A stretch of DNA of 64,000 nt from Hyaloraphidium curvatum. Taxonomy: Eukaryota; Monoblepharomycota; Hyaloraphidiomycetes; Hyaloraphidiales; Hyaloraphidiaceae. The translations under genes were made by a program, and so were the position numbers. Each line of letters opens with the position of its first letter. Positions within the stretch are counted from its first letter, which is position 1. Below the pieces are notes generated by a model that was not told the origin of the DNA, did no database searches, and was given only the letters and a program-made list of their open reading frames with translations. This document shows, piece after piece, positions 15,346 through 48,500 of this stretch. The stretch spans positions 558,001 through 622,000 of the forward strand of contig JAIVFI010000005.1 in assembly GCA_025558095.1 (NCBI GenBank). Direction: 5' to 3'.

Positions 15346-15485
15346 CACGACGACCGAAGCAATGTGCAAGCAAGAAACTGCGCCAACAAAATCCTGTTCT
15401 GCTCTCTTTTACAACGTCCGTCGCCAATCCAATGCATCCGTTCCCGCACCAAACTCGCCCCCCATCGCCTCCAAGGCACACCGGC

Positions 15486-18056
15486 TCAGCGCTTGCGGTA
15501 GTTGCGCGAGAACATGAGACCCGTGAGACCCCTGGAGTTGAGCGTGGTCAGCATCGGGGCGATCGTCGAACCGCAAGCGAGACACGCACATGAACGCAAA
15601 GAAGACAAACAAGGCCGAGTTGACGGCGTAGCTGACATTGGTCGTCGCAATGTCGTTGGGCTTGACGCCGTTGATGTAGGTGATGAAGTCCGCGCCCTGG
15701 CCGATGGGGCAGTACGATCCGGCGGGGAAGATGTTCGGCTCCCGTACGGCCGTCTCTGCCGCGGTCGTCCCGGCGTCATACACAGAGTAGCCGCCGAGCA
15801 CCCGCGTGGTCTGGGCTTGGGTGGTGAAGTTTCCGGGGGTCGTCGAGGCCGGCGCGAGGCGGTTCTGGATGGCGAGGGAGTTGGCGGCGAGCGCGGCCTG
15901 CGTCGCGGGGGTGACGGATTGGAGCTTGGCGGTCTCGGTGTTGGCGTTGACGACGTCCATGCCGGCCCTGGGACAAGGTTAGCGCGCGTGCTCGTTGCGG
16001 AATCAAGGAGGCAAACGCACCAGAACGTGGTGACGGCGACGGCGTTGGCCTTGTCAGCGACAAAGCTGGCGTTCTGGGCGTGCGCAAAGCCGCTGGCCAC
16101 GGCCTCGGAGATGCCGGCCGAAGGGAGAGGCCCGCAGGGCACCTTGAGGTCGTAGAAGATCTGCCAGCACACGTACATGAGGCACCAGCGCCAGTAGTTG
16201 ACGTCGGCGATCCAGCGCAAGCCGGGGGACATGGTGTCGAGCGGGGCCTGCACGCCGCAGAAGATCCAGAAGATGAGGCCGGCGGCCCAGAGCGCGGTGT
16301 AGGCCTGCACGAGGGTCTTGGACCATGCGGACCAGGCCTGGGCGACGGCGGTGGCGAGCCAGAACTGCAGGAACATCATGGGATAGATCCGGCCGAAGGC
16401 GTACGACAGCCAGGGGTTCGCCATGTAGAAGATGATGATCATGATGATGGTGGTGATGACGGTGACAAAGCAGCCCTCGAGGACGAGGTACGTGAGCCAG
16501 AAGGGCGGGGTCGTGTAGAAGGCGCCGTCCATCTCCTGCAGGTACAGCTCGCGGTCCTCGAGGAATTGGGGCACCGAGGCAATTGCGACGAAGATGGAGA
16601 AGAAGGTGTAGGTCGTCGTGATTTGCCGCAGGGTGCCGAGGTTCGTGGGGTCGATCTGGTGCGGAAAGGCCAGCGGTGAGCCGGGGCAGTCCGCGGCACC
16701 GAGCAGCGGATGTACTCACGCCGTAGAAAATGCCGCCCATGAAGAGTGCCAAGACCAGGAAGAGGAACAGCCGTCCCCACGAGGTCGAGGGGTTGCGCCA
16801 GTAGCGCATGAGGCAGCGCCAGCCCAGCAGCCGCATGAGGTCCCACCACTGCCTCTCGACAATGTGCTCGGAGTACCTCACTGCGCTGTAGGTCTGCGAC
16901 TTGAGCCTGTTGAGCTCGGCGAGGTTCGCGCCGGCGAGGGGCGACTTGTCGTAGTAGGTCGCGGCGGCCTGGGTGTTGGCGCTGATGACGTCGAGGTAGT
17001 GCTCGATGGGGTTCTGCAGCTTCGGCGTCGGGTAGCCCATCGTGCTGAAGTACGGCTCGGCGGCGGCGACGGGGCCGAAGTAGCACGTGCGGCCCTCGGA
17101 GAGCAGCATGGTGTTGTCGAAGAGGTTGAAGACGGCCTCGGAAGGCTGGTGGATGACTGGACGTGCCATCCGTTTGGCGTGAGCTGGGGATAAGGTGCAC
17201 GACGCAGCGATTCGAACGCACCAATGACGACGCACACGTTCTCCGACTTGACATACTTGAGCACGAGCTCCATGGTGAAGCGGGCGCCAAAGTCGTCGAG
17301 ACCCCTTTGCAGAGGCGGCGAGGGTCAGCGGCGCGATCGGGCGGGGCGAAACCCTGCAACTCACGAAGTGGGCTCGTCGAGGAAGAGCATGCGCGGGCGG
17401 GCAATCATCTCCGTGGCGACTTCGGTGCGCTTCTTCTCGCCCGACGAGACGCCGCGGATAAGCTCGTCGCCGACGGGCGTGTTCTGGGCGTTGGTGAGCT
17501 TGAGCCCGGCGATGACCTCGTCGACGCGGGCGACGCGCTCCTCGTGGGTCGAGTTGCGGGGCATGCGGCACTCGGCGGCGAACATCAGCGTCTCGCGCAC
17601 GGTCATGGTGGGGATGTGCGCCATCATGGTGGTGATCTGCCCGAGCCGCCTCTTGAAGAAGACGTCGGGCTTGGTGCCGTTGACGAGGACTTCGCCGGTG
17701 ATCTCGCCGAGCGACTTGCGCTGCGACAGGATGTCTGACGAGGCACCTACGGTCAGCAGCGTGAAACGCTAGGGACGACAACCGACGCACCGAGCAGCGT
17801 GGTCTTCCCCGCGCCCGAGGGCCCGATGATGGCCAGCGACTCTCCGGGCCGGGCAAAGCCGGTGTTATCGATGAGGGAGTGCACGACCTTGGGCTTGCTG
17901 AAGAGCCCGCCAGACTTGAGCTTGCAGTTGACATTCTCCCACGTCACGGTGTCTGTGTCCCGAGCGTGCTGGTGAGCGAGGAGTCCGGTGGGCGCAAAGG
18001 AGATCCGTACAGCCGGCGTGGTCGCTCGCGGCCGCGGCGCTGGGGTTCGCCTCCAT
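15486..18056 (-). CDS. ABCG half-transporter A, left copy
   Basis: Mirror copy of the gene at 34937-37507; eight exons, predicted 722 aa, stop at 15486. Order is ATPase domain then membrane domain, the ABCG (White/ABCG2) topology, so it must dimerise. Walker A GPSGAGKTTLL, Q-loop LGQITTMMAHIPTMTV, signature VSSGEKKR, Walker B MLFLDEPTSGLDD and H-loop VVIVIHQPSEAVF are all present. The membrane half has about six helices, with a long external loop between the last two (around residues 570-690) before NSALFVFFAFM. ABCG proteins export lipids, sterols or drugs, or import pigment precursors; the substrate is not predictable. It shares the divergent promoter at 18057-18491 with half-transporter B. 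Confidence 0.88.
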
Positions 18057-18491
18057 GTCTGGACGTGCGGCGCAAGTTCGGAGTGGAGCTGGTCTTGCGT
18101 TCGCAGGCTGCCTTGGTCGTTAGGGAGCGGCGTTTGTGAGGGGTGGCGGGTTGGGAGACAGCAACCAGGTGGCGGCTCGGAGACAGATAGATTGCACCTG
18201 GTGACCGGAAAGTCGAGACCCACACTTCCGTTGCACCGCGACCGTCCTCCCTTCTACAGGGCTAATTCCGATGCTTGTGATGAATTATTCGGCGGTGTCT
18301 TGAGTCCTTCCATGCACGTTCGATTGGTTCGACCAGTGCGGTACCCGTCCCCCTTTTCGCCGCTGTTGCCACGGCCTGGACCCAGGCTGTCTCCCACGGT
18401 CGCCGCCCGGTGTGGTCAACAGCCATCAGTTCCGTTCGCGCCTGAGGCAGCCTATAGGCACTGCTCCAATCGACCGAGGGCCAACCAAGCC
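18057..18491. promoter_or_regulatory. shared divergent promoter of the left ABCG pair
   Basis: 435 bp between the two ABCG starts. It is copied almost base for base at 34501-34936, with a one-base G-run difference. A single region drives both half-transporters, which would give coordinated expression. Confidence 0.55.
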
Positions 18492-21363
18492 ATGTCGGGA
18501 GCCCCCGAGACCGTCGCGGCGCAGACCGTGGTGGCCGACGCCGCTGCCACCGTGCAGGACGCGGCGGCCGCCGCCGGCGAGCAGAAGATCGCCACGGGCC
18601 AGGCGTCCATCGCCCTGCCCAAGGCCGGCGACAAGATCGCGCGGCTGGCTTCCTGGTGAGTCCAGCTGCCGCTCCCGGCGCGCCCTTCTGACCCGCGACT
18701 TGCAGGGCCGTGACGGACCCGAACCAGCTCAACCCCGCCTTCTTCTCGTTCAAGGACATCTCATGCGTGCTCAAGTCGGACGGCAAGCCCAAGGTCCTGC
18801 TCGACATGGTCTCGGGCTACTGCAAGGTGCGCCTCGCCGCGCCGGTGCCGCGACCCGCCTGACCGTTCCCCGCCGCAGCCCGGCGAGACGCTCGCCATCA
18901 TGGGCCCCTCGGGCGCCGGCAAGTCGACGCTGCTCGACATCCTGGCCTTCCGCAAGACCACCGGCAAGTGGACGCAGGACATCCGCCTCAACGGCGCCCT
19001 GCTCTCCAAGCGCACCTTCGTCAAGGAGTCCGGCTACGTCACCTCGGACGACCTGCTCACGCCCGAGCTCACCTGCAAGGAGATGCTCCAGTTCGGCGCC
19101 GCGCTGCGGCTGCCGCCCAACTGGACCACCCCGCAGCGCGAGCAGCGCATCTCCGACGTGCTCGAGGTCATGCGCCTCGGGTACTGCTCGGATCGGCGCA
19201 TCGGCGGCGCCCTCCAGCGCGGCCTGTCCACCGGCGAGCGCAAGCGCCTCAACGTCGCCATGGAATTGCTCCCCGTCGCCTCGGTGCTCTTCCTCGACGA
19301 GCCCACGACCGGCCTCGACTCCAACACCGGCCGCGAGATCATCGCCAACGTCGTCGAGGTCACGCGCCTGCGTATGCTGGCCTGTGTCGCCACCATCCAC
19401 CAGCCGTCCTACACCATCCTCGCGCAGTTCGACTACCTGCTCATGCTCGCCAAGGGCAAGCTCTGCTACTACGGCCGCGTCGTCGATGCCATCCTGTACT
19501 TCGAGTCCCTCGGCATCCCCGTCGCCGGCAACCCCGGTGAGTTCTGGCGGGCTGGCCGCGGCGGATCACTCTGACGATCGTCGTGTTCCAGCCGAGATTT
19601 ACGCCGACGCCCTCGCGGCCCAGCCCGACCGCCTCATCGAGGCCTGGGAGGGTTCGGCCGAGAGGACCATCCTCGCCAAGAAGGTCGAGGCAATCCACTC
19701 GGGCCAGGGCTCCATCAACGATGTCGTGTCCAAGGCCGACCAGACGCCGACATTCGCCGACAAGATGGGATTCTACCAGGTCGCGCCCGTCTGGCAGCAG
19801 TTCTTCCAGCTCTTCAAGCGCCAGGTGCTCGTCTACGCGCGCAACCCCGTCATGTCGACCTCTCGCATCATCTCGGCCATCATCGTCGCGCTCTTCTTTG
19901 GCGGTGCCTTCTTCAATCTCCCCCGCACGCTCACCGGCATGCTGTCGCGCGAGAACGAGATCTTTGCCTACGCAGTCATGATTCCCGGATGGGGCTCCTC
20001 CGTGATCGCGTACTGGGTCGAGAAGCGCAAGGCCTACTACCACGAGGAAGCTGCAGGATACTACCACCGATTCGGCCACCTGCTCGTCATGTTCTGGGTC
20101 GAGTTCATCTTTTTGTCGTGCATCATGCTGGTCCAGGTGGGTTCCGACAACGGCCGCTTTCGCGAGCGATCTGACCTCGATGGACACTGTCTCCAGGGCG
20201 CGATCATGTTCACCATGTCCGGGTGGATCCAGCGCAACGTGGGCATGTACCTCGGCTTTGGCGTCGCCGTGACCTTCGGCTCGACCGGGATGAACCTGCT
20301 CTGCGCTTACTGTTCGTTTGTCGTGCGCGGTCGTCGGTGCGTGCCTCTGACGTCGCACCATCACAGGCGCCGCCTCGATCCCCTACGCCAACGCGGCCTT
20401 CACGCTCAACTTCTTCTACAGTCTGGCTCTTAGTTCGGTCTGCATCGCCGGCACGCTCGCTCGTTCGCGCCTGGGCTGACGCGACCGACGTACCCGTTCC
20501 GCCTCATCAGATCTACTGCACGGACGCCTTCCTCTTCCCGCGCTCGCCTTCGGCCCGCGAGTTCTGGTCGTGGTTCTCGTACGCCCGCAGCTTCATCGTC
20601 CCCGTCGTGCGGCATGAGGCCCTCGACGAACCCCTGTCGTGCACCCAGACCGACGACCCGCAGACCAGCCTCATCAAGCCCCTCGACTTGGGGGGCACCG
20701 CTCTGACGGGGTACTACGGCGCGGCCAAGAACCTCACGGCCCAGGCGGCGGCCGCCAACCCCACCATCGTGCAAACGCTCAACTCGTTCGGTTCCTTCCC
20801 GCAAGCCACGGCGGAGCAGAACGCGACCATCACCAGCTTCTGGAACTCGGGCACGACGCTCAAGAATGCGCAGACGTCGCTCGCCACCGCCCAGGCGGCC
20901 AACAATCCCGCCGACGTGATCTCGAACCTGCAGAGCATCGTCGCCGCCGCAACCGCCGTCTTTGCCGCCGCCGCCAACATCCCCGCCAGCAACACGGCCG
21001 CGATCCAACAGGCGCTCAACCAGACGGTGACGGCCAAGAGCATCATGAACATGGCCACCGTGCTCGTCGAGAACCCGCTGCCGGGCTTCACGCCGTGCGT
21101 CTTCGACACCGGGGAGGGCTTCCTCGACGCCATCAGTGGTCTCGAGTGGTACGTCCGTAACTCGTCGGGTGCGATCGTCGGTCCCGGCAAGGACAACTTT
21201 GCAGCGACCTCGGACGGTTTCTACGTGGTAAGTTGCTGCTACGGGCGTCGGCGTCGGTTCGGAGCTCACTCTGTGCTGTTAGGCGGTTGCGTTCATCACG
21301 GGCGTGGGCTGGTTCATCCTGGCGTACCTGTGCTTGTGGTTCTGCAACTTCAGGCAGAAGTAG
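18492..21363 (+). CDS. ABCG half-transporter B, left copy
   Basis: Exons 18492-18655, 18706-18826, 18879-19536, 19592-20136, 20197-20311, 20367-20437, 20511-21227, 21283-21363; 823 aa. ATPase-then-membrane half-transporter. After a ~50 residue Ala-rich N-terminus come Walker A GPSGAGKSTLLD, signature LSTGERKR, Walker B VLFLDEPTTGLDS and H-loop CVATIHQPS. Five helices are grouped between ~residues 420 and 560. Then comes an unusually long, probably extracellular, Ala/Asn/Thr-rich loop (~residues 560-790, TAQAAAANPTIVQTLN, AAATAVFAAAANIP) before the last helix GVGWFILAYLCLWF. Typical ABCG loops there are under 100 residues. It differs clearly from half-transporter A, so the pair is not a simple tandem copy. 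Confidence 0.88.
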
Positions 21364-21893
21364 GCCTCAGGGACGACGGGCGCTGCAATTGGATAGGGAA
21401 GACGGAGAGAGGCCTCTTGTACGAGTTTTAATAGGGACGCCGTTGGATTCACCGATGCCTTCGGAGTTGTGTCGACCTGCGAAGCCACCCCCGCTCCCGC
21501 CAAAAAGCAGCCTGCTCCTGACAAGGTCCGCCAAACCCTCAAACAGTCTGGCACCGCGCGACAATGATGACGATGATTGGGAGAACCAGTCACGGCGCGA
21601 TCGAGGCCGTAAGGGTTGCATGTGGATTTGCGGGGACGGTGGCTTTCTGTTCGATGGCGATCAATCCCCAAGTGGAGACGGACCTTCTCTTCCGGGTTCC
21701 ACAAGCTTTGAACTTGCTTCGTCCGACAACTCAATCGACGATGCAGCTGGGGATCAGAACCACAAAGTCGATTGCACGCGAGTCGCCGACGTACAATGCG
21801 ACGCGACGGCACGACGTCGCTGAAACTCTCCCTAGAAAGCTAGTCGGGTATCATTGCATCACAGCATTAAGATATCGCTACGCAATCAAGAAA
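21364..21893. other. inner boundary of left arm; convergent 3' region
   Basis: 530 bp between the stops of half-transporter B and the UCH gene. Bases 21364-21630 belong to the inverted repeat. 21631-21893 is unique spacer sequence with no recognised feature. Confidence 0.6.
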
Positions 21894-23792
21894 TCACTTT
21901 TTCGCCTTGCGCTTGCCGCCCGCTTTCTTAGCCCCTGCTATCCCCACGAACGTCCGCTGCTCACTCGTCCGGAGCGCATCGGGAAGCTCCTCGGCGATTC
22001 TCCCATGTGAAGCTATTTGCTGGCGAGCCCAGTCCAACTGCTCGGGCTGATTGGGATCCAGCCAACCTTCCATAACGGCCTCCAGCAACCCGAGCCGGGC
22101 AAGCTCCCGGAAGTAGCCGTCCAAGAAGGGAGCAAAGTCTTGGTTCCTGTCGATCCCCTCCGCCTGCGGCACTCGCGGTCAGCAATGCACGTGAAAGGCG
22201 TCTGCATCCTCCCACCTCCCATCCGTGCCGCGTTTCCCAGGCGCTCTCGACCTCGCGCGTTGCAAACTGGTGGCTTTGTTTCACCCTTTCAAGCGCGACT
22301 TCGACGGCATGCTTTCGCTCGGAGCCGAGCTTCTCCAGCTGCTCGAGCAGCGGCGTGACTTTGACAACATCGTTGAAGTCGGTGGACTCCCACAATGAGG
22401 CCGAATCAGTGACGCTATCAACGACGACGGCCCTCTGCGCATCGGAATGCGCGGCAAGCCACTCTTCCATGGCCGACTTGAGCTTCGCCGTCGCACTTCG
22501 CACTTCAGCGAGATACGGCAGCCTGTCTAGACATACAGCAAGCAACGAGCAGGCGACATCGCTCGAACTGCCCCGGTGAGACTATGGCCATGCGACGGGG
22601 ATCCGGAGTTACCTTTTCATGACTTTTCGGATGTCCGCCATGGCCTTCTCCAACCACTTGTCCTTGCCGCGGCTTCCCAAGGTCGCTACCAGAACCGGAT
22701 TGACCTGCAAGCCGTCGAGCTTCCACACCTCCAGGCTGTCGCTGAGCCCGTCGGGACGGACGCCGACGTAAGCGATGAAGTGGTAGGCGTCCTCGAAATC
22801 GTAGTCGATCCCGTCGTCCTCCTCCTTCTGCCGCTCGTTCTCGTACGTTTGCTTCCGTATCGCGAGGATCTCGGAGGGCCGACCGTAGTTGGTGTGGATG
22901 TGGTGCAGTTCTTCGGAGTTGGAAATCAGCAGTCCTTTCATCTATGTGCAGAGAGCATGATTGACGTGCGCAGGAGACAGCGTCGCAACCCACCTGGCTG
23001 CTGAAGTCGGCCGAGAACCTCTTGAAATTCTCCAGCATCTCTCCCACGGAGACGTTCGACTCGTGTGCCAGATTCATGACGATGTTGATCAGGCCATGCG
23101 TAGCACACGCATTGGGCACCACTTGGTTCGAGAAGAAGAGATGCGGGGGTGCGGGGGTCGAGTCCTTGTCAGCCGCGCCAACAACATCGTTAAACTTGAA
23201 GCACAGGATGAGCCCGAGGATCCGGTCGCTGGGGATGAAACCGGGTCCCGCCCGATTGTAAGGGCGCAGTTGGTCGGCCGCCCAATTCCCTCACCGAAAG
23301 GACTCCCAGGCCCACTCATCGGTGTCCAGCACCTCGAGGATCTCGATGCCCCGCACACCTGCGTCTCGCAACATGTTGTGGAACGATCCCGGATCGCTGT
23401 CCACCGTTGGCCATGGAACTGTCGATTGCCCATCACTTGGCTGCCAAACCACGGAGAAACCTCTCGCTTAGCCCACATGATCGCAGCGGAATCCCGGATT
23501 TGGAAAAGGCCGGGTGTGCTTCCTGGGGCTTGTGCGGCTTCGGTGCCGGCGATGACCGGGCCTCGCCGGGCGTGCAAGCGCTTGGCTCCGCTACGTCCAC
23601 GTCCATGTCGGCTGTCTCTGGCAGCTGAGGCACGGAATCCGACGGAGGATCCTGCTCGTGTCCTGAAGCAAGGCGTAGCAAAGCTTCTGTTGCATCCTCC
23701 TCCGTTCCCCTCGAGCCGTTGCTAAAAGTGCCGACAGGAACGACCGCTTCCCGGGCCGCAGGCGCACCGGGATCTGCAATAGAGCACGTCAT
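21894..23792 (-). CDS. UCH-family deubiquitinase, UCHL5/BAP1 type
   Basis: Exons complement of 23792-23477, 23418-23295, 23228-22994, 22941-22613, 22522-22216, 22163-21894; 526 aa. A ~110 residue acidic, Pro/Ser-rich N-terminus precedes the peptidase C12 domain (WPTVDSDPGSFHNML onward). The catalytic set is intact: oxyanion Gln Q182 and Cys C188 in NQVVPNACATHG, His H279 in DAYHFIAYV, and Asp D301 in VWKLDG. After a helical region comes the UCHL5/BAP1-specific C-terminal (ULD) block NQDFAPFLDGYFREL, then a basic tail KKAGGKRKAKK like those of BAP1/Calypso and UCHL5. These enzymes remove ubiquitin at proteasomes, INO80 or, as PR-DUB, from histone H2A, and need a DEUBAD partner. The divergent neighbour encodes just such a protein. 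The first intron (23419-23476) is the least certain. Confidence 0.9.
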
Positions 23793-23961
23793 CGTCAGGT
23801 TGGATATTCAAAGATGCAGCCGCTTGCCTCCGGACGCCATCGCCGGACTACGGCAGACGGCAGCGACGCCGCCCTCTGAGATGCGTGACTGATGATCTAA
23901 TCGACGATGAATTGGAGCACGCCCCTGACAGGGGTTCCTGGAGGACGCGTCGCGTAGTGCG
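23793..23961. promoter_or_regulatory. shared promoter gap, UCH deubiquitinase / DEUBAD protein
   Basis: Only 169 bp separate the two start codons, so both genes must use overlapping control sequence. No specific site was recognised. Confidence 0.5.
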
Positions 23962-25759
23962 ATGAAGCGTCCAGGCCGTGACGCAATGGAAGAAGGTCCC
24001 CAGTTGGAGAGCGACGCGTCGTCGGAGCTGAGCGAGCACTCGGACTCCTCGGACTCGGACGACGACCGGCGAAAGGCAGCGGGTTCAGCGCCGCGGCCTG
24101 CGGCCACCGTACCTCCTTTGGCTCGCACTGAGGCCCAACCTGCCGAGGCCGTGGAGCCGGAGCCCGTTCCGGAGATTCTGGACACTGCCCCCCACGGTCG
24201 AAGACCGAGGCGATCGCCACCTTCTCCAGTCGCAAGGAACGCAGAACCTCAGGATAATTGTTCTGTGCCTAGTCCAGCGGCATCCAGCCCACGGGGACGG
24301 TCAAAGTCGGTCACTATGGAGGTTGATGAAGAGGCCAACCTCGGACAAGGTCGCAAATCTACACGCGGCCGCGAAAAGCCGTCCAAATCTTCTGAGCCCG
24401 TCGAGATTGAAGATAGGGCGGTCGGTGCAAGCGGAGGACGTGGCCACCAGAAGGTTGCACGCCATCAGTATGCCCGCCTCTCGAGCGCATTGCACACGGC
24501 GGAGGAGAAACCAGACTATGATCCCAACACCGTGACGGGCAGCCCTGCGTCCCCCCGTGGTGTACTTCGAGAACGGCGACATGGTGAGCGCGCATCCATC
24601 GCCCGTCTATGTGCTTTGCTCATGAAGAGTCCAGAAATCATTGGGCTTCAAACTGTTTTCGATTCTTCCCGAGGAAAGCCGGTCGCGGCTTACCAATCTC
24701 CTTCCCGAGTACGAAAGGGAGAAGCTGAAGGCGAGCAGTGTTTTGGCGGACAAGGCTGCCGTGAATGAAACAGTGAGGGGCCTGGTGGAAAATTTCCGAG
24801 CTATTCAGCTCCGGGATCGCACGGCCGCGGACAAGCGCGGTGCCTACAGCGGAGAGGAAGACCCTACGCCCGAGTACGATGAGGACGCTGTCAAGGCCGC
24901 TTTGGACGGGTACCGCAGATTCGCTGCCGAGCACGCAAATACCCCCGTTCCACCAGAGGCCCTGCGGAAGCTTTTCGAAAGCAACCTGTTCCTGCAAACG
25001 GACTTCGACATCTGGCGGAACGAAATCGCTGTCGGCCACATGACTCCTGCTTTCCTTGCCGGGTTTGAAAAGTGGGCGAAGGAGAAGGAGCACACGACTT
25101 CGCAGAAAGACCAGCATTTCGAGGCGTGGTGGGGTGAGAGGCGGATCGAACGAGGCTGGTAGCAGGGTCGGAAAGCTTGCCCTCGCACGCGAAAGGCATT
25201 GACTAACACTTACCGCCACTCAGGGCCTCGAGAGAGATCACCCTACTAATGCTCATCAAGCGGAAGCTGGTATTGGCGGGCGACAGGCTGGTGTTCCGGC
25301 GCAACTTTTCCTTGATCAAGAAAGAGATTGAGCGAACCGTCGAGGTGGGAGTGGGGTCCGAATTCTGCACACCAAGTTTCTCACTCAAGTGGCCAGATTG
25401 AAGGCGTGGACATATCGTCCGGCCTGACGATCAGGATGCTGCCCGGAGGGGAGGGTCAGGAGGGCTCCGCGTCGAGCGCGGGCATGCTGATCGAAAAGTT
25501 GGACGCCCCGACTGCGATTGAACACGCCATTTTGGACGCCGATGGCCGCGTGGGAAGGCTACAGAGGCCCAACGGGAACGCGTGGAAGTGCCTGAAGCTT
25601 CTTCGCCAGGGCGGCGATGGGACGTGGATCGATCTCGGGACGCTGTGGCACGTGAGGTTGGACGAGTGGGAGCGCAAGACCGGGCAGGTCAACTCCCGGG
25701 AGGCAGCAGCTGCAGCCAAAGAGGAGAAATCGGGCAAAAGCAAGGGTAGGCGAAAATAG
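23962..25759 (+). CDS. ASXH/DEUBAD protein with RAMA-like C-terminal domain
   Basis: Best model: exons 23962-24424, 24543-24583, 24635-25158, 25224-25344, 25397-25759; 503 aa. The donor of the first intron is uncertain (24350, 24425 or 24440 all keep frame). The N-terminal ~150 residues are acidic and Ser/Pro-rich with basic patches. The DEUBAD/ASXH module begins at FKLFSILPEESRSRLTNLLPE and continues through LRKLFESNLFLQTDF..W and GHMTPAFL, matching the helix pattern by which ASXL, RPN13 and NFRKB bind and regulate UCH enzymes. The C-terminus (REITLLMLIKRKLVLAGDRLVF, then ILDADGRVGRL and NAWKCLKLL) resembles the RAMA domain, linked to adenine-methylation reading or modification systems. It is divergent from the UCH gene. 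Confidence 0.8.
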
Positions 25760-25873
25760 AAGCAGCCGTTCGCGCCCAAAGTCGATACCGGGTTTGATCT
25801 GGAGCGCCGGTGGCGGCCCCCGATCAACCCGCGCCTGCTCGTCGCACAGAACCGCGTGCGCGTCGTTTGCGAA

Positions 25874-26662
25874 ATGGCGTCCTCCTCGGCAACATCGGGG
25901 TCTTCTGCTTCGGCATGGGCCCTTTCCCTGCCGTCAACATCGTCGGCCGTGGCCAGGAGCGGGTTCGCCGAGCCGGCCGGCTTCAGCGCGTCCTCGTACG
26001 AGATTACCCGGCAAACAGGACCCGGCAAGGTGGAACGCTTCTCGAAAGAGCGGACGGACGGTCTCTGATCATCCCTGGATCGCGCAGAGGACAGACCGTA
26101 CGGTGGCCGCCGAGGACAACCAAGCCGAGCTGAAGCTCAAGGTTCGTCGACCCTGCGCCGGCATGGCTGCGCTTACGGCACGCTCTAACGTCTGGCACGG
26201 GCCCTCGCAGAAAGCCTGGGACGTGGTCTCGAACTCGGCGAAGGGCATTCCGATGAATGCCTTCATGCTATACATGTCCGGAGGCGGTGTCCAGATTTTC
26301 TCCATCATGATGACAGGAATGCAGCTGTGGAACGGCTTCCAGGGCCTCATGAACACGGACAAGGGTGGGACGAGGATCCGCGTGTCCGCGGCGGACTTCT
26401 GACAAGGGTGCCAACTGCAGTCTTCGAGCGATTCGTGATTGCGCCCGGCCCCACCAACCTAGCCAGCTTGGTCCAGCGCTCGAACCCGAATGCGCCCCTA
26501 CTTGGTCCTAAGCTGCTGTACATCCTGCTGCAGCTGGTGATCGCGGGTCTAGGACTCTACAAGATGTCGTCGATGGGCCTGTTGCCCACCGCGAAATCGG
26601 ACTGGCTGGCTTGGGAGTCGCCGCAGCCGTGGACTGAATGGAGCGGAGGCGGAGTGCGGTAG
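25874..26662 (+). CDS. EMC4: ER membrane protein complex subunit 4
   Basis: Exons 25874-26029, 26088-26141, 26211-26364, 26421-26662; 201 aa, the normal EMC4 size. EMC inserts tail-anchored and multi-pass proteins into the ER membrane. Family features are KKAWDVVSNSAKGIPMNAFMLYMSG, the first helix at VQIFSIMMTGMQLW, a second helix ILLQLVIAGLGLYKMSSMGLLP and the C-terminal SDWLAW...EWSGGG motif. The start is the first ATG of the frame; a GTG at 25856 is in frame upstream. It follows the DEUBAD gene by 114 bp on the same strand. Confidence 0.88.
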
Positions 26663-31062: not shown

Positions 31063-31628
31063 CTTCTGCACGGTTTCTTGAGGTCTCATGGTCTGTTGTT
31101 TCGTCGTCATGGAATGTCTATTGCTGCGCCGTTCGCCCTTAAGGTCCGGCCGCGTCTCCCACTCAAATCACTCCGGCGCAGCATGTGTCGCGCGGAGCGT
31201 CAGCTCGCCGCGTGGGAGGCGCTGCCGGACCTGGCGCCGCCGTTGAGGTGCGCAGGGCCACGGCGCGTCCCAGCTCGCTGAGCAGCGCTGGATTGTGCAT
31301 CCGGTCTCTCCTACCCGGTACGTGTTGTGGTAGCTACCATCCAATGACAGCGAGCCCCAAGTCAAATCCACATGCAACCCTTAGGCCTCGATCGCGCCGT
31401 GACTGGTTCTCCCAATCATCGTCATCATTGCCGCGCGGTGCCAGACTGTTTGGGGGTTTGGCGGACCTTGTCAGGAGCAGGCTGCTTTTTGGCGGGAGCG
31501 GGGGTGGCTTCGCAGGTCGACACAACTCCGAAGGCATCGGTGAATCCAACGGCGTCCCTATTAAAACTCGTACAAGAGGCCTCTCTCCGTCTTCCCTATC
31601 CAATTGCAGCGCCCGTCGTCCCTGAGGC
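31063..31628. other. inner boundary of right arm; convergent 3' region
   Basis: 566 bp. 31063-31362 is unique sequence after the RasGEF stop. 31363-31628 belongs to the right arm, downstream of half-transporter B'. Confidence 0.55.
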
Positions 31629-34500
31629 CTACTTCTGCCTGAAGTTGCAGAACCACAAGCACAGGTACGCCAGGATGAACCAGCCCACGCCCGTGATGAA
31701 CGCAACCGCCTAACAGCACAGAGTGAGCTCCGAACCGACGCCGACGCCCGTAGCAGCAACTTACCACGTAGAAACCGTCCGAGGTCGCTGCAAAGTTGTC
31801 CTTGCCGGGACCGACGATCGCACCCGACGAGTTACGGACGTACCACTCGAGACCACTGATGGCGTCGAGGAAGCCCTCCCCGGTGTCGAAGACGCACGGC
31901 GTGAAGCCCGGCAGCGGGTTCTCGACGAGCACGGTGGCCATGTTCATGATGCTCTTGGCCGTCACCGTCTGGTTGAGCGCCTGTTGGATCGCGGCCGTGT
32001 TGCTGGCGGGGATGTTGGCGGCGGCGGCAAAGACGGCGGTTGCGGCGGCGACGATGCTCTGCAGGTTCGAGATCACGTCGGCGGGATTGTTGGCCGCCTG
32101 GGCGGTGGCGAGCGACGTCTGCGCATTCTTGAGCGTCGTGCCCGAGTTCCAGAAGCTGGTGATGGTCGCGTTCTGCTCCGCCGTGGCTTGCGGGAAGGAA
32201 CCGAACGAGTTGAGCGTTTGCACGATGGTGGGGTTGGCGGCCGCCGCCTGGGCCGTGAGGTTCTTGGCCGCGCCGTAGTACCCCGTCAGAGCGGTGCCCC
32301 CCAAGTCGAGGGGCTTGATGAGGCTGGTCTGCGGGTCGTCGGTCTGGGTGCACGACAGGGGTTCGTCGAGGGCCTCATGCCGCACGACGGGGACGATGAA
32401 GCTGCGGGCGTACGAGAACCACGACCAGAACTCGCGGGCCGAAGGCGAGCGCGGGAAGAGGAAGGCGTCCGTGCAGTAGATCTGATGAGGCGGAACGGGT
32501 ACGTCGGTCGCGTCAGCCCAGGCGCGAACGAGCGAGCGTGCCGGCGATGCAGACCGAACTAAGAGCCAGACTGTAGAAGAAGTTGAGCGTGAAGGCCGCG
32601 TTGGCGTAGGGGATCGAGGCGGCGCCTGTGATGGTGCGACGTCAGAGGCACGCACCGACGACCGCGCACGACAAACGAACAGTAAGCGCAGAGCAGGTTC
32701 ATCCCGGTCGAGCCGAAGGTCACGGCGACGCCAAAGCCGAGGTACATGCCCACGTTGCGCTGGATCCACCCGGACATGGTGAACATGATCGCGCCCTGGA
32801 GACAGTGTCCATCGAGGTCAGATCGCTCGCGAAAGCGGCCGTTGTCGGAACCCACCTGGACCAGCATGATGCACGACAAAAAGATGAACTCGACCCAGAA
32901 CATGACGAGCAGGTGGCCGAATCGGTGGTAGTATCCTGCAGCTTCCTCGTGGTAGTAGGCCTTGCGCTTCTCGACCCAGTACGCGATCACGGAGGAGCCC
33001 CATCCGGGAATCATGACTGCGTAGGCAAAGATCTCGTTCTCGCGCGACAGCATGCCGGTGAGCGTGCGGGGGAGATTGAAGAAGGCACCGCCAAAGAAGA
33101 GCGCGACGATGATGGCCGAGATGATGCGAGAGGTCGACATGACGGGGTTGCGCGCGTAGACGAGCACCTGGCGCTTGAAGAGCTGGAAGAACTGCTGCCA
33201 GACGGGCGCGACCTGGTAGAATCCCATCTTGTCGGCGAATGTCGGCGTCTGGTCGGCCTTGGACACGACATCGTTGATGGAGCCCTGGCCCGAGTGGATT
33301 GCCTCGACCTTCTTGGCGAGGATGGTCCTCTCGGCCGAACCCTCCCAGGCCTCGATGAGGCGGTCGGGCTGGGCCGCGAGGGCGTCGGCGTAAATCTCGG
33401 CTGGAACACGACGATCGTCAGAGTGATCCGCCGCGGCCAGCCCGCCAGAACTCACCGGGGTTGCCGGCGACGGGGATGCCGAGGGACTCGAAGTACAGGA
33501 TGGCATCGACGACGCGGCCGTAGTAGCAGAGCTTGCCCTTGGCGAGCATGAGCAGGTAGTCGAACTGCGCGAGGATGGTGTAGGACGGCTGGTGGATGGT
33601 GGCGACACAGGCCAGCATACGCAGGCGCGTGACCTCGACGACGTTGGCGATGATCTCGCGGCCGGTGTTGGAGTCGAGGCCGGTCGTGGGCTCGTCGAGG
33701 AAGAGCACCGAGGCGACGGGGAGCAATTCCATGGCGACGTTGAGGCGCTTGCGCTCGCCGGTGGACAGGCCGCGCTGGAGGGCGCCGCCGATGCGCCGAT
33801 CCGAGCAGTACCCGAGGCGCATGACCTCGAGCACGTCGGAGATGCGCTGCTCGCGCTGCGGGGTGGTCCAGTTGGGCGGCAGCCGCAGCGCGGCGCCGAA
33901 CTGGAGCATCTCCTTGCAGGTGAGCTCGGGCGTGAGCAGGTCGTCCGAGGTGACGTAGCCGGACTCCTTGACGAAGGTGCGCTTGGAGAGCAGGGCGCCG
34001 TTGAGGCGGATGTCCTGCGTCCACTTGCCGGTGGTCTTGCGGAAGGCCAGGATGTCGAGCAGCGTCGACTTGCCGGCGCCCGAGGGGCCCATGATGGCGA
34101 GCGTCTCGCCGGGCTGCGGCGGGGAACGGTCAGGCGGGTCGCGGCACCGGCGCGGCGAGGCGCACCTTGCAGTAGCCCGAGACCATGTCGAGCAGGACCT
34201 TGGGCTTGCCGTCCGACTTGAGCACGCATGAGATGTCCTTGAACGAGAAGAAGGCGGGGTTGAGCTGGTTCGGGTCCGTCACGGCCCTGCAAGTCGCGGG
34301 TCAGAAGGGCGCGCCGGGAGCGGCAGCTGGACTCACCAGGAAGCCAGCCGCGCGATCTTGTCGCCGGCCTTGGGCAGGGCGATGGACGCCTGGCCCGTGG
34401 CGATCTTCTGCTCGCCGGCGGCGGCCGCCGCGTCCTGCACGGTGGCAGCGGCGTCGGCCACCACGGTCTGCGCCGCGACGGTCTCGGGGGCTCCCGACAT
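31629..34500 (-). CDS. ABCG half-transporter B', right copy
   Basis: Mirror of 18492-21363; the predicted 823 aa protein is the same wherever I compared the two copies, including Walker A GPSGAGKSTLLD, signature LSTGERKR and the Ala/Asn/Thr-rich external loop. Stop TAG at 31629-31631. Its 3' end faces the RasGEF gene, whereas the left copy faces the UCH gene. Confidence 0.87.
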
Positions 34501-34936
34501 GGCTTGGTTGGCCCTCGGTCGATTGGAGCAGTGCCTATAGGCTGCCTCAGGCGCGAACGGAACTGATGGCTGTTGACCACACCGGGCGGCGACCGTGGGA
34601 GACAGCCTGGGTCCAGGCCGTGGCAACAGCGGCGAAAAGGGGGACGGGTACCGCACTGGTCGAACCAATCGAACGTGCATGGAAGGACTCAAGACACCGC
34701 CGAATAATTCATCACAAGCATCGGAATTAGCCCTGTAGAAGGGAGGACGGTCGCGGTGCAACGGAAGTGTGGGTCTCGACTTTCCGGTCACCAGGTGCAA
34801 TCTATCTGTCTCCGAGCCGCCACCTGGTTGCTGTCTCCCAACCCCGCCACCCCTCACAAACGCCGCTCCCTAACGACCAAGGCAGCCTGCGAACGCAAGA
34901 CCAGCTCCACTCCGAACTTGCGCCGCACGTCCAGAC
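34501..34936. promoter_or_regulatory. shared divergent promoter of the right ABCG pair
   Basis: 436 bp, one base longer than the left copy because of a G-run difference. Otherwise identical as far as read. Confidence 0.55.
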
Positions 34937-37507
34937 ATGGAGGCGAACCCCAGCGCCGCGGCCGCGAGCGACCACGCCGGCTGTACGGATCTCCTTTGCG
35001 CCCACCGGACTCCTCGCTCACCAGCACGCTCGGGACACAGACACCGTGACGTGGGAGAATGTCAACTGCAAGCTCAAGTCTGGCGGGCTCTTCAGCAAGC
35101 CCAAGGTCGTGCACTCCCTCATCGATAACACCGGCTTTGCCCGGCCCGGAGAGTCGCTGGCCATCATCGGGCCCTCGGGCGCGGGGAAGACCACGCTGCT
35201 CGGTGCGTCGGTTGTCGTCCCTAGCGTTTCACGCTGCTGACCGTAGGTGCCTCGTCAGACATCCTGTCGCAGCGCAAGTCGCTCGGCGAGATCACCGGCG
35301 AAGTCCTCGTCAACGGCACCAAGCCCGACGTCTTCTTCAAGAGGCGGCTCGGGCAGATCACCACCATGATGGCGCACATCCCCACCATGACCGTGCGCGA
35401 GACGCTGATGTTCGCCGCCGAGTGCCGCATGCCCCGCAACTCGACCCACGAGGAGCGCGTCGCCCGCGTCGACGAGGTCATCGCCGGGCTCAAGCTCACC
35501 AACGCCCAGAACACGCCCGTCGGCGACGAGCTTATCCGCGGCGTCTCGTCGGGCGAGAAGAAGCGCACCGAAGTCGCCACGGAGATGATTGCCCGCCCGC
35601 GCATGCTCTTCCTCGACGAGCCCACTTCGTGAGTTGCAGGGTTTCGCCCCGCCCGATCGCGCCGCTGACCCTCGCCGCCTCTGCAAAGGGGTCTCGACGA
35701 CTTTGGCGCCCGCTTCACCATGGAGCTCGTGCTCAAGTATGTCAAGTCGGAGAACGTGTGCGTCGTCATTGGTGCGTTCGAATCGCTGCGTCGTGCACCT
35801 TATCCCCAGCTCACGCCAAACGGATGGCACGTCCAGTCATCCACCAGCCTTCCGAGGCCGTCTTCAACCTCTTCGACAACACCATGCTGCTCTCCGAGGG
35901 CCGCACGTGCTACTTCGGCCCCGTCGCCGCCGCCGAGCCGTACTTCAGCACGATGGGCTACCCGACGCCGAAGCTGCAGAACCCCATCGAGCACTACCTC
36001 GACGTCATCAGCGCCAACACCCAGGCCGCCGCGACCTACTACGACAAGTCGCCCCTCGCCGGCGCGAACCTCGCCGAGCTCAACAGGCTCAAGTCGCAGA
36101 CCTACAGCGCAGTGAGGTACTCCGAGCACATTGTCGAGAGGCAGTGGTGGGACCTCATGCGGCTGCTGGGCTGGCGCTGCCTCATGCGCTACTGGCGCAA
36201 CCCCTCGACCTCGTGGGGACGGCTGTTCCTCTTCCTGGTCTTGGCACTCTTCATGGGCGGCATTTTCTACGGCGTGAGTACATCCGCTGCTCGGTGCCGC
36301 GGACTGCCCCGGCTCACCGCTGGCCTTTCCGCACCAGATCGACCCCACGAACCTCGGCACCCTGCGGCAAATCACGACGACCTACACCTTCTTCTCCATC
36401 TTCGTCGCAATTGCCTCGGTGCCCCAATTCCTCGAGGACCGCGAGCTGTACCTGCAGGAGATGGACGGCGCCTTCTACACGACCCCGCCCTTCTGGCTCA
36501 CGTACCTCGTCCTCGAGGGCTGCTTTGTCACCGTCATCACCACCATCATCATGATCATCATCTTCTACATGGCGAACCCCTGGCTGTCGTACGCCTTCGG
36601 CCGGATCTATCCCATGATGTTCCTGCAGTTCTGGCTCGCCACCGCCGTCGCCCAGGCCTGGTCCGCATGGTCCAAGACCCTCGTGCAGGCCTACACCGCG
36701 CTCTGGGCCGCCGGCCTCATCTTCTGGATCTTCTGCGGCGTGCAGGCCCCGCTCGACACCATGTCCCCCGGCTTGCGCTGGATCGCCGACGTCAACTACT
36801 GGCGCTGGTGCCTCATGTACGTGTGCTGGCAGATCTTCTACGACCTCAAGGTGCCCTGCGGGCCTCTCCCTTCGGCCGGCATCTCCGAGGCCGTGGCCAG
36901 CGGCTTTGCGCACGCCCAGAACGCCAGCTTTGTCGCTGACAAGGCCAACGCCGTCGCCGTCACCACGTTCTGGTGCGTTTGCCTCCTTGATTCCGCAACG
37001 AGCACGCGCGCTAACCTTGTCCCAGGGCCGGCATGGACGTCGTCAACGCCAACACCGAGACCGCCAAGCTCCAATCCGTCACCCCCGCGACGCAGGCCGC
37101 GCTCGCCGCCAACTCCCTCGCCATCCAGAACCGCCTCGCGCCGGCCTCGACGACCCCCGGAAACTTCACCACCCAAGCCCAGACCACGCGGGTGCTCGGC
37201 GGCTACTCTGTGTATGACGCCGGGACGACCGCGGCAGAGACGGCCGTACGGGAGCCGAACATCTTCCCCGCCGGATCGTACTGCCCCATCGGCCAGGGCG
37301 CGGACTTCATCACCTACATCAACGGCGTCAAGCCCAACGACATTGCGACGACCAATGTCAGCTACGCCGTCAACTCGGCCTTGTTTGTCTTCTTTGCGTT
37401 CATGTGCGTGTCTCGCTTGCGGTTCGACGATCGCCCCGATGCTGACCACGCTCAACTCCAGGGGTCTCACGGGTCTCATGTTCTCGCGCAACTACCGCAA
37501 GCGCTGA
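34937..37507 (+). CDS. ABCG half-transporter A', right copy
   Basis: Exons 34937-34982, 35041-35202, 35247-35628, 35689-35771, 35837-36273, 36338-36972, 37026-37403, 37462-37507; 722 aa. First exon MEANPSAAAASDHAG joins YTVTWENVNCKLKSGG across a 58 nt intron. ATPase motifs as in the left copy. Membrane helices include FLFLVLALFMGGIFYG, TYFFSIF-like FFSIFVAIASV, LEGCFVTVITTIIMIIIFY and LWAAGLIFWIFCGV. The C-terminus is GLTGLMFSRNYRKR. An upstream in-frame extension from 34767 is open only in this copy because of the G-run indel, and is not conserved in the left copy, which supports the 34937 start. Confidence 0.88.
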
Positions 37508-37689
37508 GCCGGTGTGCCTTGGAGGCGATGGGGGGCGAGTTTGGTGCGGGAACGGATGCATTGGATCGGCGACTTGTACGAGAGAGCTTCAGAATAGGAG
37601 CTTGGTTTGGCATTTTGTTTGCAGATGGTTTTCCCTCACCCCATTCTAACTTGCCCCGCTTGTTGTCCCTCCTGCTACTGTGGCTTGGT

Positions 37690-43286: not shown

Positions 43287-45315
43287 ATGCGGTCTCTTGA
43301 GCCTCCCCGCCCCCGCACGCCCGCCGGCCGCGCCAAAACATCCGCGCTCCCCTTGCTCGCCGCCCTGCTCCTCCTCCTCCTCCTCGCCGCCGGCCGCGCA
43401 TCCGCGCAATCGAGCAGGTCTCTCGCAACCCCCATCACGCGGCAGTTTGCCTTCCCCACCGCCTTCTCGCGGCCCGCGCTCGCCACGAAGCAGGCGCTGC
43501 CCTCGCAGGCGTCGCAGAGCACCGCGACGGGGTCGGCGGCGGACGGGAGGACGGCGTCGGCGGCGTCGGCGACCGGCACGCAGTCTGCGGGAATGGCGAG
43601 CGGGACGGTGCTGGCGTCGGGGTCGCTGACCCGCACGGGAAGCGCCCTGCCGTCGGCGACGAGGACGGGCACCTTCTCCGGCCCGTCGTCCGCGCTCCCC
43701 GGGTCCCCCCAGGGACAGCAGACGGCGACGGCCCGCACGACGCCGCCGTCCGATTCGAACCACTCGCCGACGGCGACGAGGACCTTTGGCGGGAACGGGA
43801 ACCCGTTCATACCGCAAGTCACAAACCCGATCCCCAAGACGCTGGTGATTTACATGACCACGACGGCGGCGACCACCAGTGCGTACAGCCGCTTCCGTAA
43901 AATCCGCTTTCGAAACTGATGCCGAGCTCCACCCGGAACCAGCAACGCAGCCCGTGGTCCTCATCACCACGCAGCTCCCCGACGGCTCCATCATCACCAT
44001 CGCCGCGCCCCCCAACAACACCAACGGCGACACCGTCGGCGGCGTCCCCGTCAAGAACCTCGTCATCGCCGGCTGCGTCGTGGGCGGCGCCATCGTCGTC
44101 GGGCTGGCGGGCGTGTACGGGTACAAGTGGCTCCGCGGGGGCCGCCGCGAGACGCTCGAGGAGCGCAAGGGGATCAGGGGGGAAAGCCACTGGACGCGGC
44201 CGCCGCCCAAGTACGACAGGGGGGGAGGGGACGACGAGGGGCAGTGGGACCGGAGCTACGCGTGGGATGCGGCGCCGGCGGCGGCGGCCGCGGGGGGAGG
44301 GAGCAAGCGCGGGTCGCAGGTGATCCTTTGGCAGGCGCCGCCGGCGGCGGGGACGCCGGCGTTTTCGCCGCCGTCGGGGCCGGCGCCGAGCTGGTCCACG
44401 CCGGGGGGGGGATCGGGGATCAACAGCGCCGAGGACCTGATGGCTGCGCTGACGCAGAACATCCACGGGTCGGCGGGGAGCGTGCAGGTGCCGACGGTCA
44501 TTCCGAGGAGCTCGACGGATCCCGACCTGGCGCTCGCAGCCGCGGCGCTGGCGGCGGGCGCGGTGGTGCCGCCCATCAGCACGCCGAGGCAGGAGCCGGC
44601 CAAGGCGCCGACGCCGCCGCCGGCCGCCGAGCCCAAGAGGATGTCGCGCGGGCCGATCCCGGCGGCGATCGACACCAAGATGGTCCGATCGGCCACGGCG
44701 CCCTCGCTCCCCGTCGCGGCGCAGCCTCCCGCGCGGTTCGCGGGGCCGGAGATGGCGCAGGTCGCCATGCCGCCCCCCGCCGCCGCGCAGGGACCGCCGG
44801 GCACGACGAGCATCAACGCCGCGCTGGCGATCGCCGCCGGCGCGCCCGGCCAGCGCCCGCGCACGGTGGCCACCAACGACATCACCGTCGAGGTGTACCG
44901 CCACGCCGGCGCCTCGGGGTCGGACACGCTGCAGCGCTACGCCAAGGCCGGCAAGCGCCCCGCGGGGCCCAAGCCCGGCCCGGGGCGGTCGTCGACGATG
45001 CAGGGCGTCTCGCCGCGGCTCATGGAGCAGGGGTACGCCCCCGGGCCCGGGGACGGCACCTGGCCCGGCCCGCTGCACCGCGCGAGCACGTACGGCGACG
45101 AGGCGATCGCGCGGCACGGCGAGGCGGTGCCCGCGCGGGCGGACGGGCAGCTCAAGCGGCAGTCGCGGGTGCCCAAGCCCGGGATGCCGCAGAGCCCGGC
45201 GTCGGGCAAGCCGAAAAAGGCCAGGGAGGCGCAGACGTGGGACGCGGTGGTCGACGTCGGGGGGGAGTTCTACGCGGGGACGGAGGGGCAGGGGAGGCAG
45301 GGCGGGACGCGGTGA
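43287..45315 (+). CDS. single-pass membrane protein, Mid2/Wsc-like architecture
   Basis: Exons 43287-43878 and 43943-45315; 654 aa. Signal peptide LPLLAALLLLLLLAAGRASA, then a ~170 residue Ser/Thr/Ala-rich ectodomain likely to be O-mannosylated, then a short QLPDGSIITIAAPP stretch and one transmembrane helix (NLVIAGCVVGGAIVVGLAGVYGYKW) ending in basic residues. The ~430 residue cytoplasmic part is disordered, Ala/Pro/Gly-rich. No enzymatic domain. The layout recalls fungal wall-stress sensors, but no WSC or other named domain was found. Confidence 0.72.
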
Positions 45316-45519
45316 TCGGCGGCCGGACCGGCCGGGTGCCAAGGGGATTTGAACGAAGGGCGTTGTAGCCAGCCTTTGGTCGAATTAACGAAGCAAATGC
45401 TCGCGAGCGGGGATGAAGAGAAGGGAGGCGTCCTTCCCAGTGCCGTTCTTCCCTTGCCTGGTGCACCACTACATAAACGAGTTCGTTTCCGTTTCGCAGC
45501 CCCGGACGCGGCTCCCGCC

Positions 45520-48500
45520 ATGGACCGCGGCTACGGCTACGCGTCGACGGCGACGCCCCCGCGCATGTCGGTGGACGAGCAGCGGCGCGGGCGCGGGCCG
45601 GCGGGCGGGGAGGGCCGGCGCGACTACGGCGGCCCTCGCCGGCGCTCCCGGTCGCGCGACGCCCCGCAGCGCGACTGGCGCGATTCCGGGTTTGAGAGGG
45701 ACGCGCGGGATGGGCGCCGCGACGAGCGGGACGGCGGGCGCGGCGGGCAGCGGGACCGCGGGCGGCCGCGCAGCCGCTCCCGCGAGCGCTACAACGCCCT
45801 GCCGTCGCCGCAGTCGCCGCAGCGGTACTCTCAGAACGCCTACGGACAGCAGGGCGGCGGGCTCGACGGGCGGGGCTTCGGCGACCGCGGCCACGACGCC
45901 CAGTGGGCCGCGCAGCAGCCGCCCGCCGACGGGCAGTGGTTCGCCCAGCGCGGCGGGCCCCAACCGGGAATGGCCCCTTCCGCGCAGCCGCAGTTTGCGC
46001 TGACGCCCGACGCGCTGGAGCTGCTCGGCAGGTTGCATTCTCAACTGCAGCAGCAGCAGGCTGCGCCGTATCAGGCGTACGCCGGCGCCCCGCAGCAGCA
46101 GCAGCACATCCCTGCCCCGCAGCCGCCGCCGCCGCACGGTTACGGCCGCGACCAGTACGGCTACCAGGACACGCCGCAGAGAACGGCAGAGCCGTCGTAC
46201 GGCGAGCCGAGGCGCGACGAGCCCCGCTACGGCGATCGCCGCCACAGCGAGCCGCGCTACGACGAGCCTCGCTACGCCGAGCGGCGCTACGATGACAGGC
46301 GGTACAACGAGCCGCGCCAGAACGAACCCAAGTACGGCGAGCCGCGATTCAACGACGCGCAGCGGTTCGCCGAGCCGCCCAGGTACGGCGACCAGCGGTA
46401 CGGCGAACCCCGGCGACCCGACCCAGGCTACGGCGAGCCCAGGTTCGAGCAACCACCCTACCGCGGCGAGCCGCCCCAGCGGCAGCACTCATTCCGCGAG
46501 CCGGCCTACCCCGATCCCGCCGGCGGCGGGTACCCGCCCCCGCACGCGGGCGGCTTCCGCCCCGCCGAGCCCGCGGAGGAGGAATCTGCCTTCCTCCCCC
46601 TCCTGGACGACGCCATTCCGCCCACCTCGGCACGCACCAATTCGCCCCCTTACCACCCCGTCCCGGGGATCTCCACGCCCCCGCGCTCGGAACCGCCGCA
46701 CGCGAGCCCCGCATCCACATCCGCCTCGGCGCCCCGCGCGGAACCCCCGCGCCCGCCATCCCCCGCTTCCAGGCTGGAGGAGCTCCTCCGCCTGCTGCGC
46801 CGCCGTCCTGTTCCCGCCGCCGCGGCGTCGCAGGCGACCGCCGAGGTGCTCCCGCTACTCGCCGCCGCCTACGGAACGAGGCTGTGGACGAGGGGCAGGG
46901 AGAACGCGCTGGTGTGCGTGCTGGTGGCTGCGGCGAGGCACCGTGCGAGGGTGGAGCAGGGCGGGTGGGAGGGGCTGGATGCAGCGGGGCTGTGGGAGGT
47001 CGAGGCCGTAAAGGTGCGTTGAAACCGGGCCGGTTGCGTTGCGTTTTTGCTGACGCCACTCCCGCCGTTGCAGCTGATCGACTTTGCCATTTCGGATCCC
47101 CCGCTGCCGCCTGTCTTCCCCGACGATGCGCCGGAGCCGCTCGAGCAGGGCAGCAGGACGTCGCCGGCCGCTCTCGCCGCCCTGTTGCGACCGCTGGTCA
47201 TGGTCACCGACAGGCGCTACCCTCCCAACTTCCGCACCCTCGCCGACTCGCTCTCGTGGCTCGGACGAGATTTCGACCTCGATCCCACCGACCTCGAAGG
47301 CATCCCAGGGCCGTCGCAGGACCCGCTGGGCATCTACGCTCCCCCGACGCCGCCCTCCGACCCCGATTCGGCGGCCCCCGCCGTCCCTTGGTCCCTCCCC
47401 GCCAACCACCCCACCTCCCTCGCCCCTCGCGACCGCTGGGCATCCTACGGCGTCCCCTCGCGCGAGCTCGACGCCCTCTTTGCCCCGCAGGCAAGGCAAG
47501 AGGCCCCGCAGGCCGCCGCGCCGGCGGCCTCGTTCCTCGTGCGAAAGAGGGCGGCGGTGCCGGCGCCCAGGCCCGCGGCGGCGGCGTCGGGGGGGCAGCC
47601 GCCGGACAGGCCCGGCGGCAGGCCCGCGGGGCATGCTGATGCGGTACATTCGCCGGCGGCGGGCGGCGACGGGAGGAAGGAGGGGCTGCGCGGGGGTACG
47701 GGGGAACCGGGCGCGCTGGTGGAGGCGGAGGTTCCGGCCGCGGAGGTGCCGGCGAACGGGGAGCAGCATGCGCATGCGGAGACCAACGGCGTCGCGGAGC
47801 ACGCGGACCATGCGGAGGAAGCGCCCGCGGTGCCCATGGACGTGGACGCACCTGGTCCTGTGGCTGCTGCGGAGCCCGAGGCCCCGACCGCCGACGGCAG
47901 GCCGCACCCGCAGAAGCCGACGCCGCCCAAGATCAGCACCGCCGGCTCGGCGTCGCCGCCCTCGCTTCCCACGGGCGGCGCGACCCCGACGCCCACGCCG
48001 ACCTCGTCCGTCGGCATGCTCCGCTCGCTCTCCAAGCCCGCCGCCGCCAAGCCGCAGGCCGCCGTCGTCGAGCTCTCGCTGGACGACCTCGCGGGGCTCA
48101 AGGCGGATGAAGGCCCCGGCGGGCGCAGGGAAAAGGAGCGCAGGGAGAAGAAGGCCGCGGCCCCGGCCGCCGTCAAGCGCGAGAAGCCGCCCTCCCGCGG
48201 GCGCGACCCGGACGACGAGGGCGCCACCTCGTCCGAGGACGACCCGGACAAGAAGCCGACCAAGCGCGCCCGCGCGGCGTCGCCCGCGAGCGACGAGGCG
48301 GCGCGCCGTTCGGCCGAGGAGCGCCGCGCCAAGGCCGAGGCCAAGCGCCGCGCGGCCGAGGAGACCGAGGCGCAGCGCGTGGAGCGGGAGGAGGCCAAGC
48401 GCGCGGCCAAGCGCGAGGCGAGCGCCAAGCGCAAGGAGGAGAAGAAGGCCAAGGACGAGGGGGACCGCAAGGCCAAGGAGGCGCAGAGGACGGCGGAAGA

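Follow-up and report, generated by a model that had tools for sequence, protein, structure and literature searches.

The BAP1-ASXL complex is a major tumour-suppressor complex, and BAP1 uses a basic extension on nucleosomes. UCHL5-NFRKB (INO80) is likewise a known case in which a chromatin-type DEUBAD protein partners a UCHL5-like enzyme. Mechanistic analogues for the locus described here are BAP1-ASXL1 (PMC4729829) and Calypso-Asx (PMC7660087), and in ASXL1/2 the NEF motif of the DEUBAD matters for activation (PMC7660087). In S. pombe, both Rpn13 proteins retain a DEUBAD, Rpn1301 co-purifies with Uch2, and Uch2 co-purifies with the proteasome; in S. cerevisiae, RPN13 is without a DEUBAD and UCH37 is also absent (PMC2935449).

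We analysed a window of 64,000 nucleotides on contig C5 of the 31.9 Mb assembly of Hyaloraphidium curvatum, a compact genome whose size, short introns and gene content look fungal. It contains, head to head, a UCH gene and an ASXH gene, which we regard as encoding a UCH37/BAP1-family enzyme and its Asx-type activating partner, the two probably acting mainly together and most likely on chromatin. Like Calypso-Asx and BAP1-ASXL, the locus combines an enzyme that has a putative ULD and a basic tail with a partner whose DEUBAD is of the ASXH type and has the C-terminal HFE..WGE motif, whereas adjacency of the two genes and the failure to find PRC1 in the genome (a weak negative) set it apart from both. 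The enzyme differs from that of BAP1-ASXL in being without the 350-residue insert and unseparated from UCHL5, and the partner differs from Asx/ASXL in a DEUBAD insert of ~66 residues, in NLF for NEF and in HARE-HTH and PHD domains that were not detected. The architecture of the enzyme, with a catalytic domain nearest to UCHL5, resembles that of UCHL5/UCH37-RPN13 (S. pombe Uch2-Rpn1301), but the RPN13 of this genome is without a DEUBAD and the adjoining DEUBAD is of Asx type; RPN13 is Pru-only as in S. cerevisiae, yet the genome retains a UCHL5-type enzyme. From UCHL5-NFRKB, the locus is distinguished by a partner closer to Asx than to NFRKB and by the NFRKB winged helix, which was not matched. 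What is new is that the ASXH gene stands head to head with that of the sole UCHL5/BAP1-type enzyme found, that RPN13 is reduced to its Pru domain, and that the ASXH gene has been duplicated.

The UCH gene and its divergent neighbour

The UCH gene lies on the minus strand (23792–21894), and the gene model comprises six exons with a product of 526 residues. Exon 1 (23477–23792, ATG at 23792), placed by the gene model and coding potential, encodes a low-complexity N-terminal extension of ~105 residues. Exons 2–4 (23418–23295, 23228–22994 and 22941–22613) encode the catalytic domain, as indicated by a Pfam Peptidase_C12 match (E = 2e-39), by PDB matches and by alignment. The earlier sequence-only reading had described the catalytic residues as complete, and in the alignment with UCHL5 none is missing: the oxyanion Gln and the catalytic Cys, His and Asp are each in register (FFSNQVVPNACATH, DAYHFIAY, KLDGL). 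Among solved structures in the PDB, UCHL5/UCH37 matched with E values of ~1e-25 to 1e-26, BAP1 with 1e-17 and Calypso with ~3e-15, and the structures of UCHL1/L3 and YUH1 matched weakly. At the catalytic Cys, the alignment revealed the motif “PNxCATH”, which is common to the window UCH, BAP1 and Calypso.

Exons 5 and 6 (22522–22216 and 22163–21894) encode a coiled coil, a putative ULD (GIDRNQDFAPFLDGYFRELARLGLLEAVME) and a basic C-terminal tail (KKAGGKRKAKK), the last in agreement with the earlier description. For the ULD block that had also been proposed, the signal is weak: the region is colinear with UCHL5 and BAP1 at low similarity (z 2.5–3.2), its alignment score was equalled by 43 of the 3,048 reported shuffles, and BLASTP against BAP1 returned E = 0.003 in one comparison, but the C-terminal region gave no match to Pfam UCH_C. 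Judged by its sequence, the putative ULD of the enzyme is only weakly recognisable.

The ASXH gene is the immediate divergent neighbour of the UCH gene, and the two share an intergenic region of 169 bp (23793–23961) between ATGs at 23792 (minus strand) and 23962 (plus strand), exactly the spacing that had been reported. The interval originally assigned to the pair, 23477–25759, does hold both genes, but it includes only the non-catalytic exon 1 of the UCH gene, and the enzyme extends to 21894. The chance that a given UCH has a DEUBAD neighbour is ~5e-4, an after-the-fact estimate that assumes ~10,000 genes and two to three DEUBAD genes. Scans of prokaryote and virus contig collections returned no relatives.

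A 6.2 kb inverted repeat (15420–21630 and 31363–37573; 99.92% identical), which carries an ABC-2 transporter gene, flanks a 9.7 kb segment with the UCH, ASXH, EMC4-like and RasGEF genes. The segment between the repeats could invert, or the repeat may have arisen by recent duplication or be an artefact of assembly. Sequence related to the inverted repeat (89%) is also present on contigs C9 and C36.

The ASXH gene and its second copy

The plus-strand ASXH gene (23962–25759) has four exons. Exon 1 (23962–24583) encodes an acidic, low-complexity N-terminus and contains a frame change at a C6 run (24551–24556). Exon 2 (24635–25158) encodes the DEUBAD/ASXH domain, with the Pfam match at ~24653–25138 and an internal insert at ~24743–24940. 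Exon 3 (25224–25345) and exon 4 (25397–25759), the latter with a conserved C-terminal region and a lysine-rich end, encode a part of the protein that matched no Pfam family and no solved structure; a RAMA domain, considered for this region, was rejected.

ASXH was the sole Pfam family matched by the partner (E = 1e-4 to 6e-4, 20–22.5 bits, profile positions 37–130). The intact domain scores beneath the curated Pfam cut-off of 25.8 bits because the insert of ~66 residues splits it; with the insert removed as a diagnostic, the score was 29 bits (E = 1.3e-6). The match takes in the ASXH-specific end (HFEAWWGER versus HFEPFWGEK in Asx), whereas human NFRKB reached 17.4 bits against the same profile and stopped at position 94, without this end. 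The top solved-structure match in the PDB was Drosophila Asx (E = 0.066). In Smith–Waterman comparisons with shuffled sequences, the partner obtained z values of 7.7 with Asx, 4.3 with ASXL1, 1.9 with NFRKB and −0.2 with RPN13, which rules out an NFRKB or RPN13 identity; the PDB alignment supplied the Asx stretches, and the sequences used as references for human ASXL1, NFRKB and RPN13 were confirmed against PDB chains. The earlier call of a DEUBAD neighbour is therefore sound, and its sequence assigns the protein to ASXH, of the Asx type rather than that of RPN13 or NFRKB. The NEF motif is degenerate in the partner: NNEFF of ASXL1 aligns with SNLFL, so that N and F are kept and E is lost. A domain search found no HARE-HTH or PHD match in the partner protein. 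A single-sequence AlphaFold2 model of the DEUBAD exon had a pLDDT of 43, too low to be taken into a fold search.

A DNA search of the genome showed that contig C7 carries another ASXH gene (L015:3842–5807, where L015 denotes C7:257500–266500), which is 88% identical to the window over 23950–25942 and has no UCH beside it. The duplicated block runs from 12 bp upstream of the ASXH start codon (23950) into the first exon of the gene that follows ASXH in the window, which by its sequence we take to be EMC4. These limits make the window locus the likely donor, with the UCH left behind, and the C7 gene is likely a duplicate derived from it. Non-adjacency combined with a better DEUBAD partner elsewhere had been named as evidence against the pair; a second DEUBAD gene without a UCH neighbour does exist, but as this window-derived duplicate. 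The 5′ part of the EMC4-like gene was copied along with it, and the neighbours of the C7 copy include a RING-finger ORF and genes for DUF7719 and RINGv proteins.

Comparison of the two copies yields a dN/dS of 0.29 overall. The value is 0.40 for exon 1 and also for exon 4, and 0.25 for the DEUBAD exon, where the second half alone gives 0.10; in exon 3, all 11 changes are synonymous. Purifying selection is apparent in every ASXH exon and in the coding frame only, the two shifted frames being unconstrained. This frame specificity shows that the ASXH gene is real and has been under selection, and it confirms the gene model.

Genome context and rival explanations

No UCH of the UCHL5/BAP1 type other than the window enzyme was found in the genome. 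The one further UCH found, on contig C9, resembles UCHL3/YUH1, scoring 174 bits with UCHL3 and 56 with UCHL5, and topology tests, run alongside a FastTree phylogeny, reject a grouping of the two (delta lnL 50). For the window enzyme, the UCHL5 placement is best, and the BAP1 placement is 2.6 lnL worse and not rejected. RPN13 was found once (contig C29:301651–301968, L004/L005), with an intact Pru domain (E = 1.3e-26) after which the protein ends, without a C-terminal DEUBAD. A converging gene, presumably Pumilio-like from its sequence, lies directly behind it and leaves no room for one. The absence of the RPN13 DEUBAD in a genome that keeps the enzyme beside an Asx-type gene carries the most weight in favour of the pair.

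An ordinary proteasomal UCH37 that acts through an unrecognised receptor, with the adjoining ASXH protein an unrelated chromatin factor placed there by coincidence, would agree with a catalytic domain that scores best with UCHL5 and with the behaviour of S. pombe Uch2 at the proteasome (PMC2935449). We consider it unlikely, because RPN13 here stops after the Pru and because S. cerevisiae lacks both the RPN13 DEUBAD and the enzyme (PMC2935449), whereas the present genome retains the enzyme, next to a DEUBAD gene. The sequence-only reading had proposed an early fungal PR-DUB, that is, a pair orthologous to BAP1/Calypso-ASXL/Asx that deubiquitinates H2A at the Polycomb site. Such a pair would account for the Asx-type partner, the shared “PNxCATH”, the basic tail and the H2A tails encoded in the genome, which retain LLPKK, the site of K118/K119 in animals, so that a target lysine exists. 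The enzyme, however, scores higher with UCHL5 and joins it in the best tree (with the BAP1 placement not rejected), the partner has a degenerate NEF motif and no matched HARE-HTH or PHD, and the PRC1/PRC2 core domains RAWUL, VEFS and preSET_CXC had no match in the genome. These last negatives are weak and of uncertain sensitivity, as is that for NFRKB_winged, since the genome profile search for ASXH missed even the window locus. According to a review, canonical PRC1 is present in no fungal genome studied (PMC7348808), and a later survey reports PRC1 in fungi only in deep branches (PMC10638273). We consider a true PR-DUB unlikely, somewhat more so than the proteasomal alternative, and we do not retain the label. 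“Early fungal” is not supported either: annotation of the mushroom Flammulina already includes an ASXH gene (PMC12295547), so that the occurrence of ASXH in fungi is no novelty in itself.

Each gene also has a likely one-base frame slip in its assembled sequence, at a short homopolymer. In the UCH gene, the peptide MAIVS, which should form the final strand of the UCH fold (compare “RFNLMAIVSD” of UCHL5), is found at the homologous place (22591–22577, minus strand; its only exact occurrence in the six frames of the window) but one frame off the preceding exon, behind an A4 run at ~22614–22617. In the ASXH gene, the break arises because the C6 run of the window is C5 in the C7 copy, whose exon 1 reads uninterrupted into VVYFEAGDM. 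Both slips likely represent assembly indels, although they may instead stem from recent decay. If the slips were real, one or both genes would be non-working here and the C7 copy could have taken over the ASXH role, as the C6/C5 difference and the displaced MAIVS strand would allow. This is highly improbable in our judgement: the slips fall at homopolymers, as indel errors predict, and in the 6.2 kb inverted repeat a G run is likewise one base longer in one arm than in the other; no other exon is interrupted, and purifying selection is seen in the ASXH gene; and the C7 copy too has a base of its own, one A more than the window copy ahead of the third splice donor. Introns were considered as a way around both breaks. 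A UCH intron at 22612–22523 splices cleanly but loses the conserved MAIVS strand, so that a frame slip is preferred, and ASXH introns from 24350, 24425 or 24440 to 24542, joining exons 1 and 2, are conceivable but would remove frame-0 coding sequence that is kept in the C7 copy.

For the preferred reading, an enzyme of the UCH37/BAP1 family with an Asx-type activator, the DEUBAD would be expected to dock on the putative ULD, keep the ubiquitin site open and raise the affinity for ubiquitin, by analogy with UCHL5-RPN13, BAP1-ASXL1 and Calypso-Asx; the basic tail could assist in holding the nucleosome. The LLPKK of the H2A tails fits this reading as well. As the proteasomal arm is seemingly lost, given the Pru-only RPN13, the enzyme probably acts for the most part together with its Asx-type neighbour, although binding between the two, activation, a place on chromatin and the substrate are inferred. 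The adjacency, the single UCHL5/BAP1-type enzyme found and the RPN13 without a DEUBAD mark the pair as a promising candidate chromatin deubiquitinase module, with no Polycomb role implied. More speculatively, the lineage might have been rewired: with the RPN13 DEUBAD lost, its sole UCH37-type enzyme would have been kept only for the sake of the Asx-type chromatin partner, the two genes now forming a bidirectional pair and representing a Polycomb-independent, pre-BAP1-like form of BAP1-ASXL. The pair bears on the origin of the BAP1-ASXL complex, and a fungus that has it together with a Pru-only RPN13 and no detectable PRC1 would serve to probe the role of the module before or without Polycomb; the same genome would allow asking which ubiquitin mark the UCH-ASXH module removes.

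Elsewhere in the window, a region of ~5 kb (43858–49626) is very GC-rich (75%) and has long open frames on both strands, with no Pfam match in the frames tried. An ORF at 60550–62718 matches the 2OG-Fe(II) oxygenase family with 26.7 bits against a cut-off of 27.
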